A DNA stretch of 44,859 bases, taken from the NCBI GenBank assembly GCA_017857895.1, contig JAFMCG010000005.1, positions 1 to 44,859 of the forward strand. Reading direction: 5' to 3'. Made by a program: the position numbers and the translations under genes. Below, one piece after another: positions 3,871 to 10,807 of the stretch. The number at the start of each line of letters is the position of its first letter. Position 1 is the first letter of the stretch. The notes under the pieces are model-generated. The model did no database searches. It was not told the DNA's origin and worked only from the letters and a program-made list of their open reading frames with translations. The stretch is from Burkholderiaceae bacterium (GTDB taxonomy: Bacteria > Pseudomonadota > Gammaproteobacteria > Burkholderiales > Burkholderiaceae_B).

Positions 3871-4554
3871 CCTGCCTGTTTTTTCCTTGATCGCTCTTAA
3901 CAAACGAAATGACATTTAAGACGGCTGATCCTTGAAAAGGCAGATGGCTGGCACGATCTGTCGCTCAAACGAAGAGAGCATCAAAAAAACGTTCAATAAA
4001 CCGGCCAAACTACCGGCCAAAAAATCTATATTCGGGTTCAACTTATAGCTCTAACCAATTGTATTAAAAAATTAAATAAGATAAATTAGTGCGCATTTAA
4101 GCGGCCAAAAATTCGGACAAACATGGTGAAAGATGAAGGTGAAAATGTTGGTCAACACTGGTCGATTTAAACCCCTGACGTTCACAAGCGTCTGTATGAA
4201 CTTTGAAGCACCAACCTGGACGGCTTTGCCGTCTGCGCTCTTGACCCCTCCCTCAAGGGTTATGTTTGCCGCGCAACTGATCAAGTTACAATAAAAATCA
4301 TATTTATCAATGCATTAAATAAATCATTAAATGTGATTTATAAATAAGCCAAATGATGAATGACGCCGTGTCTTTATCGGCAACAACACGAAATGACTGT
4401 TCTCGTTGCTCTAGATTTCCCAACCAGTGTTCACCGTCATGTGCTGAAACGCAAACTTACCACGTTGACTGCGTTCGTCGCCAAGCCCCTAATACTTCTT
4501 TTGGCTCAGCAAGTACGGGTTGATTAACACTAAGCCAATAACCCATCCCAAAAC

Positions 4555-4668
4555 ATCCCGATCGGGATTTATTAGGCATTTGATGATCCATATATGGATA
4601 AATAATCCCGATAGGGATGAATGTTATTAAAAATACACACAAAGCACTATAATCATCCCGTAAAGGAT
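4555..4668 (+). promoter_or_regulatory. Cluster of four ATCC-N6-GGAT palindromes, putative HipB operators
   Basis: ATCCCGATCGGGAT 4555-4568, ATCCATATATGGAT 4586-4599, ATCCCGATAGGGAT 4605-4618, ATCCCGTAAAGGAT 4655-4668; all immediately upstream of hipB. Confidence 0.8.
4648..4653 (+). promoter_or_regulatory. Putative -10 box (TATAAT) of the hipBA promoter
   Basis: Perfect TATAAT 2 bp upstream of the fourth palindrome; the -35 is weak (TTATTA at 4624-4629, 18-bp spacer). Confidence 0.55.
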
Positions 4669-4684
4669 GAATTGGATCATTACG

Positions 4685-4912
4685 ATGGACGCTACCGAGA
4701 TCGGTTTTTTGATACGACAAGAACGCAAAAAGCAGAAACTGACGCAAGAACAACTGGCCGCACTGGCCGGCGTTGGCGTTCGCTTCATCCGTGAAGTTGA
4801 GCATGGCAAACTGACCTGTCAATTGGCGTTGGTTTTACAGGTCATGCAAACGCTCGGACTAAAACTGGGCATCAAAACCCCAGATGACCGATTGCAGGAG
4901 CGATCCCCATGA
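4685..4912 (+). CDS. hipB: HipB-like helix-turn-helix antitoxin/transcriptional regulator
   Basis: MDATEIGFLIRQERKKQKLTQEQLAALAGVGVRFIREVEHGK: HTH_3/Xre-type fold. Alternative in-frame ATG at 4667 lies inside the fourth operator. 4-bp ATGA overlap with hipA. Confidence 0.85.
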   Translation: MDATEIGFLIRQERKKQKLTQEQLAALAGVGVRFIREVEHGKLTCQLALVLQVMQTLGLKLGIKTPDDRLQERSP

Positions 4913-6180
4913 GCCGAACACTCGACGTGTATTTTGGAGAGGTGAAGGCTGGTGAGCTTGTGCAAGATGCTGGCGGATCACTTGGCTTTGCTTATGCTTC
5001 AGAATACTTGGCCACCAACAATGCGCGCGCCATCTCGGTCTCTATGCCGCTGCGCGAAGAGCCTTACGCGAATCGGATCGCACAAGCCTACTTCTCTGGG
5101 CTTTTGCCCGATGAAAACTCGCGTCAGCGTTTGGCTAGTTTGCTTGGCATATCTGAATCCAATACATTTCGATTGCTAGAGATTATCGGTGGCGAATGCG
5201 CCGGCGCGCTGACCCTGATGCCAGCGGGCAAACCCATGCCTAATGAGCTCGATTACCCGCCGCAGCCCCTTTCAGAGAAACGCCTTGCTGAAATTCTCGA
5301 CACATTACGCTCACACCCTTTGCTGGCAGGAAACCTGGGCGTCAGGCTTTCTTTAGCGGGTGCTCAGAATAAGGTCGGCGTCTGCATGATAGACGGCGAA
5401 GTTGCACTTGCCATGGGTGGACACACCACCACACACATCCTCAAACCACACATAGAGGGCCTAAACGGCACCGTCGAAAACGAAATTTTTTGTATGCGCC
5501 TGGCAAAAAAAATCGGTTTTTTTGCACCTGAGGTCAGTATTCGCAGGGTTGGCAAAGTGGCCTACTACCTGATCGAACGCTATGACAGGACGACGGATTT
5601 AAAAAATTCAACGGGCTTGATCAAACGCTTACACCAAGAGGATTTCTGTCAAGCACTTGGCATTGCCCCTCAGTTCAAGTACGAAGACGAGGGTGGGCCC
5701 GGTGTGACCCAATCGCTGCAATTAATCGGCAGACACACTCGTGCGCCTGCCGCAGACAGCCTCACATTTCTGAGAATGCTGATATTTCATTTTCTGATCG
5801 GCAACGCCGATGCCCATGGCAAAAACTACTCGCTGCTTTATCGCGGTGAAACACCTGACTTGGCACCGGTTTACGATGCAATCTGCACAGCTGCCTACCC
5901 TTCAATGGCCAAGCAACTCGCCATGCAAATCGGGGGGCTTGGTCTACCCGATACCATTCAATTCAAGCACTGGTTAACCTTGGTACCAGACACAGAGCCC
6001 GCTCGCCGATTGGTCACTCAAGAAATGCAAAAAATGGCCACTAGCGCGCTCGAAGCCAGCCCGCGACTCGCTCGTGAGCTACGCGACGAAGGCATTGACC
6101 ATCCCATCATCACTAAAATTCAAAAAATCATCAAAAAGCGTGCTGAACACATCATGCGCTCGATTGAAATGCCACATTGA
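4909..6180 (+). CDS. hipA: HipA-type serine/threonine kinase toxin
   Basis: 423 aa; RLSLAGAQNK (aligns with the E. coli HipA Ser150 segment), FLIGNADAHGKNYSLLY catalytic loop, LAPVYDAICTAAYP metal-binding region. Confidence 0.92.
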   Translation: MSRTLDVYFGEVKAGELVQDAGGSLGFAYASEYLATNNARAISVSMPLREEPYANRIAQAYFSGLLPDENSRQRLASLLGISESNTFRLLEIIGGECAGALTLMPAGKPMPNELDYPPQPLSEKRLAEILDTLRSHPLLAGNLGVRLSLAGAQNKVGVCMIDGEVALAMGGHTTTHILKPHIEGLNGTVENEIFCMRLAKKIGFFAPEVSIRRVGKVAYYLIERYDRTTDLKNSTGLIKRLHQEDFCQALGIAPQFKYEDEGGPGVTQSLQLIGRHTRAPAADSLTFLRMLIFHFLIGNADAHGKNYSLLYRGETPDLAPVYDAICTAAYPSMAKQLAMQIGGLGLPDTIQFKHWLTLVPDTEPARRLVTQEMQKMATSALEASPRLARELRDEGIDHPIITKIQKIIKKRAEHIMRSIEMPH

Positions 6181-6199: not shown

Positions 6200-6430
6200 C
6201 GCCGTTGGCAGCGGGGAATCAATGAAAACACCAACGGATTGCTACGACAGTATTTACCCAAAGGAATCGACCTATCAGTATTCAGTCAGGATGAGTTAGA
6301 TTCAGTCGCTTGGGCGTTAAACTCAAGGCCTAGAAAAAGCCTCGGATTCAAATGCCCTGCTGAACTCTTTTTACCTGATACATTTAATGCCGACGAATAT
6401 TACCGCCGGCTTGTTGCACTTCACATTTGA
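6200..6430 (+). pseudogene. IS30-family transposase, C-terminal remnant
   Basis: Frame reads [57 protein letters not shown], matching the IS30 transposase C-terminal signature (RGxNENTNGLxRQYxPKG). N-terminal and central catalytic parts absent. Confidence 0.85.
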
Positions 6431-7391: not shown

Positions 7392-8030
7392 GTGCCTTGT
7401 CTTATGAAACACGCTGCTGGAAACATCTTTTTAATCACGGCACCCAGTGGTGCTGGTAAGTCCAGTTTGGTCAATGCCTTACTAAGCCAGGACCCAGCAT
7501 TGCGTTTATCAGTGTCTTGCACCACGCGAGCCCCTCGCGAGGGTGAAACGGATGGTAAGGATTACTACTTTGTCACTGAGGCTCAATTCTTGGCCATGCA
7601 AGCCGCCGATGAATTGCTCGAGTCAGCACACGTTCATGGCAATTATTACGGCACGCCTCGGGCACCAATGATTCAAGCCGTTCAAGAGGGCCAGGACATT
7701 TTGCTCGAAATTGACTGGCAAGGTGCGGCACAAGTCCGAAAACTTTTACCCAGCGTCACCGGTGTGTTTATTTTGCCACCCTCAGTGCAAGCGCTTGAAC
7801 AACGTCTCAGGGCCCGGGGCAAAGATAGTGAGGCGGTTATTGCGGCGCGAATGGCTGCCGCCGAAAGCGAAATCGCGCACGCCAAAGAATTTGAATATGT
7901 TATTATTAATCAAGAGTTTACCGACGCTTTGCAGCAACTTTCACAGATTGTTGCCAGTGCACGACTCCGGTTTTCTCGTCAGGCGATGACTCACCGAGCT
8001 TTGTTTGATGCGATGGGTCTGTCAACTTAA
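7392..8030 (+). CDS. gmk: Guanylate kinase
   Basis: [20 protein letters not shown]-loop; [20 protein letters not shown]. Start may be ATG at 7404. Confidence 0.97.
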
Positions 8031-8440: not shown

Positions 8441-10807
8441 ATGGGATTTCCGGGGCTGCGAACGGCATCATCCGGGTTGCTTTCAGCAATCAAGGTTGGT
8501 TCGCGCTTCGGAAGACGCGCCAAACCTGTCGACAAGGCAGGCAACAATAACGCAAACCACAGCGTCGAAGCCACCGATCGGGCCAGCGCGTCGGCCCAAA
8601 CATCAGCGAATGCATCGCTGAACCAACTTCAAAGCATCATTTCTGGCTACCTGAGCAAAAAGGACATTGCCAAGATCAAAGAAGCTTATCGCTTTTCTGA
8701 TCAAGCCCACCTCGGCCAATTCCGCTCTAGCGGCGAACCCTACATCACCCACCCGATCGCTGTCACTGAAATCTGTGCCGGATGGAAGCTTGACGCTGAT
8801 GCGTTAATGGCTGCGCTTCTGCATGACGTCATGGAAGATCAAGGCATTGCCAAGTCCGACTTGGCTGAACAGTTCAGCCCCGACGTGGCTGAACTGGTAG
8901 ACGGCCTGTCCAAACTCGACCGCCTAGACTTCGCGAGTAAGGCACAACAGCAGGCCGAAAGCTTTCGCAAAATGCTCTTGGCGATGGCGCGTGACCTCAG
9001 GGTCATACTGATAAAGCTCGCTGACCGCTTGCACAATATGCGCACGCTCGATGCCGTGAATCCAGAGAAACGACGTCGCATCGCCCGCGAAACACTTGAG
9101 ATTTACGCGCCAATCGCCAACCGTCTGGGTCTTAACGCTATTTTTAGAGAGCTTCAAGACCTTTGTTTTCAAGCGATGTACCCGAATCGATATAACGTTC
9201 TGAATCGGGCGGTGATGGCTGCTCGTGGCAATCGGCGCGAAGTATTAACCAAAATCTTTGATGCTGTTCGAGCTGCGCTACCGGCAGCTGGCATCGAGGC
9301 TGAAGTCTCCGGACGCGAGAAGACTCTTTTCGGCGTTTATAGCAAAATGACCGAACAGAAGAAATCATTTTCCGAAGTGCTCGATATTTATGGCTTTCGC
9401 ATCGTGGTTCATACATTGCCCGAGTGCTATCTTGCGTTAGGCATCGTGCACCAGCTCTATCGACCTGTTCCAGGTAAGTTTAAGGATTATGTCGCCATTC
9501 CCAAGGTCAACGGTTATCAATCTTTACACACCACCTTGGTTGGCCCCTTTGGCACTCCAATCGAGTTCCAATTTCGTACGCGCGAAATGCACAACGTCGC
9601 CGAGCAAGGGGTCGCTTCGCATTGGATCTACAAAACCGATGACGTCAGCCTCAGTGACATTCAGAAAAAAACCCACTCAGCGCTTCAGTCATTGCTTGAT
9701 ATACAGAGCCAAACGGGCGACTCAGGCGAGTTTTTAGAAAACGTCAAAGTCGACTTGTATCCAGATGCGGTTTACGTCTTTACCCCGAATGGCAAGATTA
9801 TTTCGTTGCCCCGAGGCGCCACACCAGTTGATTTTGCATACTCAATTCACACTGACGTTGGCAACAGGGCTGTTGCTTGTAAAGTTAATGGCGAATACGT
9901 GCCATTGCGCACGGAGTTGGCCAGTGGCGACACGATTGAAGTCATCACGTCTGAGGCCTCTAGACCAAGCGCGCAGTGGTTGAATTTTGCGCGCACGGGC
10001 AGGGCTCGATCAGAGATTCGACATTACTTGCGCACGGTTCGGTATAGCGAGTCAGTCGCCTTCGGCGAGCGACTTCTCAAGCAATCATTTCATGAGTTGA
10101 AACTCGATTTTCCCAAAGATGACGATGGCACTTGGGATAAGCTTCTTAAAGAAAGTAGTGCCAACTCTCGGGAAGAGATACTGGCTGATATTGGACTCGG
10201 TAAAAGACTGGCGGCCGTGGTGGCACGCCGCTTTACACCGCTGCACCCGCTGATCGCCACCACAGCCGCTGAGCTTGACGTCCTAAGCGCAGCACGTGCC
10301 GCTCCTATCCTCATTCAAGGCAATGAAGGGCAAGCGGTTGTTTTATCACCCTGTTGCGGCCCCTTACCTGGCGACAATATTGTGGCCGGCATCCGTGTGG
10401 GTACTGGTTTGGCAGTTCACACCGCCGACTGTCCCGTGTCTAAAAGGGCGCGGCAACGGGAACCCGAAAGATGGATTAATGTTGCTTGGGACACCAACAC
10501 AGCACGCCACTTCCCTGCCCGCATCGATATCACAGCGCTTAACGAGCGTGGTGTTCTGGGAAAAATCGCTGGTGAGATTGCGCAAGCTGACTCTAACATC
10601 ATGAACGTGAACATGAATGATGACACCAGCGAGTCATTCCTCTTGAGCTTGACGGTTCAGGTCAATGACCGGAATCATTTGGCTCGCGTCTATCGGGCGA
10701 TACGTCATGTGCCTCAAGTGCGCCGTATCGTGCGCTCTAAAGGCGCACACCACGCCAATCATCAGGCTCAAGATGGTGAGAACTCAGAAACCCACGAACG
10801 ACCTTGA
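8441..10807 (+). CDS. spoT: Bifunctional (p)ppGpp synthetase/hydrolase (RelA/SpoT family)
   Basis: HD domain (LLHDVMEDQ...LADRLHNMRTLD), synthetase domain (DIYGFRIVV...KDYVAIPKVNGYQSLHTT), TGS and C-terminal ACT domains; gmk-rpoZ-spoT order. Confidence 0.96.
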   Translation: MGFPGLRTASSGLLSAIKVGSRFGRRAKPVDKAGNNNANHSVEATDRASASAQTSANASLNQLQSIISGYLSKKDIAKIKEAYRFSDQAHLGQFRSSGEPYITHPIAVTEICAGWKLDADALMAALLHDVMEDQGIAKSDLAEQFSPDVAELVDGLSKLDRLDFASKAQQQAESFRKMLLAMARDLRVILIKLADRLHNMRTLDAVNPEKRRRIARETLEIYAPIANRLGLNAIFRELQDLCFQAMYPNRYNVLNRAVMAARGNRREVLTKIFDAVRAALPAAGIEAEVSGREKTLFGVYSKMTEQKKSFSEVLDIYGFRIVVHTLPECYLALGIVHQLYRPVPGKFKDYVAIPKVNGYQSLHTTLVGPFGTPIEFQFRTREMHNVAEQGVASHWIYKTDDVSLSDIQKKTHSALQSLLDIQSQTGDSGEFLENVKVDLYPDAVYVFTPNGKIISLPRGATPVDFAYSIHTDVGNRAVACKVNGEYVPLRTELASGDTIEVITSEASRPSAQWLNFARTGRARSEIRHYLRTVRYSESVAFGERLLKQSFHELKLDFPKDDDGTWDKLLKESSANSREEILADIGLGKRLAAVVARRFTPLHPLIATTAAELDVLSAARAAPILIQGNEGQAVVLSPCCGPLPGDNIVAGIRVGTGLAVHTADCPVSKRARQREPERWINVAWDTNTARHFPARIDITALNERGVLGKIAGEIAQADSNIMNVNMNDDTSESFLLSLTVQVNDRNHLARVYRAIRHVPQVRRIVRSKGAHHANHQAQDGENSETHERP

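Follow-up and report, generated by a model that had tools for sequence, protein, structure and literature searches.

The hipBA operon and its surroundings

The window, i.e. the whole stretch of 44,859 nucleotides that was analysed, carries on its forward strand two overlapping genes, hipB and hipA. The first (4667..4912) encodes an antitoxin of the Xre/HTH_3 type (Y4mF family), 81 aa long from the ATG at 4667 and 75 aa from the ATG at 4685, which scores 78.1 bits against NCBIfam TIGR03070 (cut-off 71.65). It lies directly upstream of hipA (4909..6180), the two genes overlapping by the 4 bp ATGA at 4909-4912. hipA is intact and encodes a Ser/Thr kinase toxin of 423 aa: Couple_hipA and HipA_C both exceed their cut-offs within this single ORF, so that the product is a full-length HipA and not a split HipS/HipT, and it aligns to E. 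coli HipA with a value of 3e-45. Judged by these matches, the locus is a genuine hipBA type II toxin-antitoxin operon. The structural model of HipB (pLDDT 87.5) places the recognition helix at residues 38-45, and its best PDB matches are the HipB structures of Legionella, Shewanella and E. coli, DNA-bound ones included. The start of hipB is ambiguous, the ATG at 4667 lying within the palindrome referred to below as O3 and the ATG at 4685 being 18 nt downstream; the O3 right half (AGGGGTGA) resembles a Shine-Dalgarno sequence in several of the relatives.

After hipA, a frame at 6221-6427 resembles, on visual inspection, the C-terminus of a transposase/integrase of the IS30 type. It has no Pfam match and is thus at most a transposase remnant. 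The operon stands shortly upstream of gmk (guanylate kinase) and of a gene for a RelA/SpoT protein (7392-8030 and 8441-10807). (p)ppGpp mediates the action of HipA in E. coli, but this proximity may be a coincidence. Elsewhere in the assembly a second protein with a HipA_C domain is encoded on contig C31 (3361-3999), with an HTH gene upstream. No CCCG-type operators, as defined below, were found at this second locus, which therefore gives no sign of operator cross-talk.

Palindromes over the hipBA promoter

Exact matches to ATCC-N6-GGAT occur four times in the window, starting at 4555, 4586, 4605 and 4655, for an expectation of 0.39 across its whole length. These are the four palindromes that the first-pass annotation had located, and their number does exceed what chance predicts: first-order Markov simulations of the surrounding 400 bp (20,000 runs) never yielded more than two copies, and four copies of any 4+4 inverted-repeat family (gap 0-12) arose in 5 of 2,000 simulations. 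The 2.49-Mb assembly holds 29 such places, the tightest group being that of the hipBA promoter. As first proposed, they cover this promoter, and the two downstream genes are hipB (TIGR03070 above cut-off) and hipA.

Several details of that first description needed adjustment. The start-to-start distances of 31, 19 and 50 bp are correct, but 50 bp corresponds to about 4.8 helical turns and not to 5. The TATAAT at 4648-4653 is where it had been placed and the fourth palindrome is indeed close to it, not directly after it: one base separates the two. The palindrome at 4555 is perfect, as noted, and so is that at 4586 (ATCCATATATGGAT).

To compare the four sites we scored them with a PSSM built from the window's clade, the window itself being left out. 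Scanned over all 44.8 kb, this matrix gives its three highest scores to 4605, 4555 and 4655, in that order, the next-best place reaching 9.5 bits, about 10 bits behind. The three sites are referred to as O1 (4555..4568, ATCCCGATCGGGAT, a perfect palindrome, 24.0 bits), O2 (4605..4618, ATCCCGATAGGGAT, immediately before the -35 region, 26.2 bits) and O3 (4655..4668, ATCCCGTAAAGGAT, which covers the predicted start of transcription and overlaps the earliest candidate ATG of hipB, at 4667; 20.2 bits). The distances O1-O2 and O2-O3 are exactly 50 and 50 bp. The remaining palindrome (4586..4599) scores -2.4 bits, lacks the near-invariant C(-3)G(-2) of the CCCG core, and stands 31 bp from O1 and 19 bp from O2, i.e. 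off the 50-bp grid; no comparable palindrome exists at the same place in 26 clade relatives. Thus, instead of the four-site array first described, the real array probably consists of three operators at 50/50 bp, the palindrome at 4586 being excluded and probably not a HipB operator. The window fits what we define here as a CCCGATCGGG-type triad: a 14-bp palindrome with a CCCG core, repeated every 49-50 bp upstream of hipB. An additional ATCCC half-site is present at 4545-4549, 10 bp before O1.

The perfect -10 hexamer TATAAT (4648..4653, forward strand) starts 7 bp before O3. This is also the most frequent register among relatives, a TATAAT-like hexamer being found 7 bp before O3 in 32 of 77 aligned loci. 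The candidate -35, TTATTA (about 4624-4629, same strand), is weak. Neither a full match to the sigma-70 consensus nor a standard -35 was found in the window, hence a weak -35 or a start position that is only predicted. A terminator-like call covers the segment 4605-4618 on both strands, and an Rfam search for structured RNA in the leader returned no match.

Conservation of the operator and of its pitch

We fetched 80 relatives of this hipBA locus, with HipA proteins 39-57% identical to that of the window, which gives 81 upstream regions with the window. Going by record titles they span about nine phyla, many being MAGs so that single assignments may be wrong; among the groups are Pseudomonadota, Acidobacteriota, Bacteroidota, Verrucomicrobiota, Planctomycetota, Chloroflexota, Gemmatimonadota (Palauibacter), Vampirovibrionales and Dadabacteria. 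A palindromic PSSM that started from the window sites was refined iteratively on these same loci, where it converged on TATTCCCGATCGGGAATA. The same 14-bp operator is present in 80/80 relatives, as WTCCCGATCGGGAW or, in the window's clade, as ATCCCGATCGGGAT. In total the matrix detects 224 sites, distributed over 81/81 upstream regions, against 0-2 in shuffles. Three sites per locus are usual, not universal: three are found in 60 loci, four in 3, two in 14 and one in 4.

The spacing, which was not used in the search, is nearly constant. Among 143 distances between neighbouring sites, 136 are of 49 bp (52 cases) or 50 bp (84 cases); four others are of 48 or 51 bp and three of 98-101 bp, the latter being loci in which the middle site is missing. 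This spacing result and a held-out set are both independent of the iterative training of the PSSM. The 15 held-out loci, of which nine come from the window's taxonomic family and six from plasmids (y4mF of NGR234 included), have the same operators at 48-51 bp; the noise level of this search amounted to three more isolated matches, plus five in shuffles. The check that had been suggested at the outset, conservation of the palindromes in homologous hipBA promoters, is therefore positive both in the fetched relatives and in the held-out loci. Pairwise identity averages 0.72 within O3 but 0.32 in the linker; with a nearly constant pitch, this indicates that it is the distance that is kept rather than the intervening sequence.

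The positions that count within the operator are not those first expected. The palindromes had been parsed as ATCC half-sites around a free 6-bp spacer. Conservation is in fact highest around the dyad, C-4, C-3, C-5 and G-2 being invariant or nearly so, while the outer A/T varies: the outer ATCC is confined to one HipB clade and is replaced by TTCC in others. Several of the best-conserved bases (CCG...CGG) lie inside the supposed spacer, and ATCC/GGAT is thus not the core. In the literature searched we found no description of this motif, of its pitch or of their phylogenetic breadth.

Residue 42 of HipB and operator position -7

Residue 42 of HipB (counted from the ATG at 4667) falls in the modelled recognition helix. 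It is Arg in the window's clade and Val, Ile, Ser or Leu elsewhere. By hand alignment it corresponds to Ser43 of E. coli HipB, which we take to be a DNA-contacting residue. The base at operator position -7 is other than T (mostly A or G, rarely C) in 27/27 Arg42 loci and is T in 48/51 non-Arg loci. We nevertheless rejected this association as a proven specificity covariation: the trait requires only about 1-3 changes when mapped onto the HipA tree, and a comparison of independent pairs could not become significant. A single change on the tree may account for the Arg42 trait, so the specificity rule is a hypothesis and serves as a lead only.

A model for autorepression and its alternatives

The presence of the triad before almost all sampled relatives, in many phyla, almost certainly marks it as the predicted site at which the antitoxin shuts off its own promoter. 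From the sites, the conservation of their sequence and spacing, and their placement relative to the -10 hexamer, all computed here, we infer that the three-operator array with its 50-bp pitch is very probably the autorepression region of HipB/HipBA. HipB dimers, probably with HipA as a co-repressor, would occupy O1, O2 and O3. O2 and O3 would bracket the promoter, the -35 region coming just after O2 and the -10 abutting O3, and bound HipB or HipBA is proposed thereby to block RNA polymerase. O1 would probably contribute cooperativity, through adjacent complexes bridged by HipA.

Three other readings were weighed against this one. That all four ATCC-N6-GGAT palindromes are HipB operators, contacted through ATCC/GGAT with an indifferent 6-bp spacer, draws on the fact that the site at 4586 is a perfect palindrome and an exact match to the pattern, at least one such match arising in only about 1% of simulated regions. 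We consider it improbable: the matrix score of this site, its missing C-3 G-2, its break of the grid and its want of a counterpart in relatives all oppose it, and the conservation peak falls inside the very bases that would have to be indifferent. Less probable still is that the sites are E. coli-type operators in the same array geometry, with a half-site gap merely 2 bp shorter. Both systems do have ATCC...GGAT half-sites and an operator directly following TATAAT, but the E. coli K-12 array consists of four 18-bp sites at 28/39/28 bp against three at 50/50 in the window, and the dyad-centred consensus differs, E. coli having C-5, C-6 and T-7 where the window family has C-3 to C-5 and G-2.

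The palindromes could finally belong to an unrelated regulator, or be DNA elements such as a terminator or insertion-sequence ends lying beside hipBA by chance, to which the terminator-like character of the O2 region would correspond. We give this hardly any credence, since hipB is preceded by this operator and pitch in every one of the 80 relatives, across unrelated genomes and plasmids, and since the genome has no place within one mismatch of ATCCCGATCGGGAT outside hipBA. The autorepression array of three operators is therefore the reading that we retain. In all, the initial observation of palindromes over this promoter is confirmed, and its interpretation partly supported.

HipBA is the classic persistence module, and the multi-operator assembly of HipA and HipB is central to keeping the toxin inactive; structures are available for few systems. 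A simple operator code (three copies of a 14-bp CCCG-core palindrome, 49-50 bp apart) that recurs across many phyla offers a handle on this assembly, and makes hipBA promoters recognisable from sequence. The pitch, which differs between HipBA families, informs the same question. We tentatively propose, with doubt somewhat outweighing confidence, that the window belongs to a widespread HipBA branch whose fixed 49-50 bp pitch, about two helical turns above the 26-28 bp of others, would reflect HipA bridging HipB dimers in a different higher-order assembly, and in which residue 42 (Arg versus Val/Ile/Ser) would set the base at -7 (A/G versus T). If true, the Arg42/-7 rule bears on cross-talk among multiple hipBA copies.

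Comparison with known HipB operators

Arrays of this general kind extend beyond the relatives considered so far. A de novo search for palindrome arrays in 89 more distant hipBA loci found arrays above the null in most, 55 of the 89 exceeding the 95% level (some chance pairs included), with pitches of 26 or 27 bp (and multiples) or of about 50 bp, each with its own motif. Other HipBA families within the window's own taxonomic family likewise have evenly pitched palindromes upstream of hipB; they differ by their motifs and by a pitch of 26 or 27 bp (multiples 52/54 and 78/81), or of 50-51 bp in a ATCCTCAC-type group. The arrays of individual loci (L128-L187, L024, L025 and L031; 26, 27 or 50-51 bp) would make a wider catalogue of HipB operator codes feasible. 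A helical phase shared by all HipB arrays (28, 39, 49.5 and ~71 bp, near 0.7 turn) was considered and is ruled out by the 26- and 27-bp pitches.

The hipBA operon of E. coli K-12, analysed as a control, has four exact TATCC-N8-GGATA sites (O1-O4) at 28/39/28 bp. Like the window it is a type II toxin-antitoxin operon with HipB and HipA family proteins, several palindromes over its own promoter and one operator following TATAAT. Unlike the window, which has none there, it has one operator between the -35 and the -10, and its sites contrast with the three CCCG-core sites of the window. The 8-bp gap between ATCC and GGAT of the E. coli-type operator is 6 bp in all four window palindromes. The contrast in spacer that had been pointed out at the start thus holds, but the bigger difference is the pitch of the array, 50/50 against 28/39/28; a different geometry of the HipB dimer is possible. 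E. coli HipB binds cooperatively at its four sites, with HipA as co-repressor (PMC3920265).

Among solved structures, Legionella HipB is nearest to the window's HipB, both in sequence and in fold. In the hipBST system of Legionella pneumophila three evenly spaced operators upstream of hipB, an 18-nt motif with 53-bp gaps between sites, are bound by HipB in EMSA, and a possible intermediate occupancy was contrasted with the cooperativity of E. coli HipB (PMC10653801). The window shares the three evenly spaced operators before hipB; hipBST differs in being tripartite, in its motif and in its 53-bp gaps. For hipBA1 and hipBA2 of Caulobacter crescentus, inverted repeats recurring at intervals are reported (PMC7029023). 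The 49-50 bp triad is present in three Caulobacteraceae loci of our set (L074, L082 and L112), so the Caulobacter repeats possibly belong to the same operator family. With the Legionella, Caulobacter and E. coli precedents, the proposed autoregulatory array of the window is of an already known kind.
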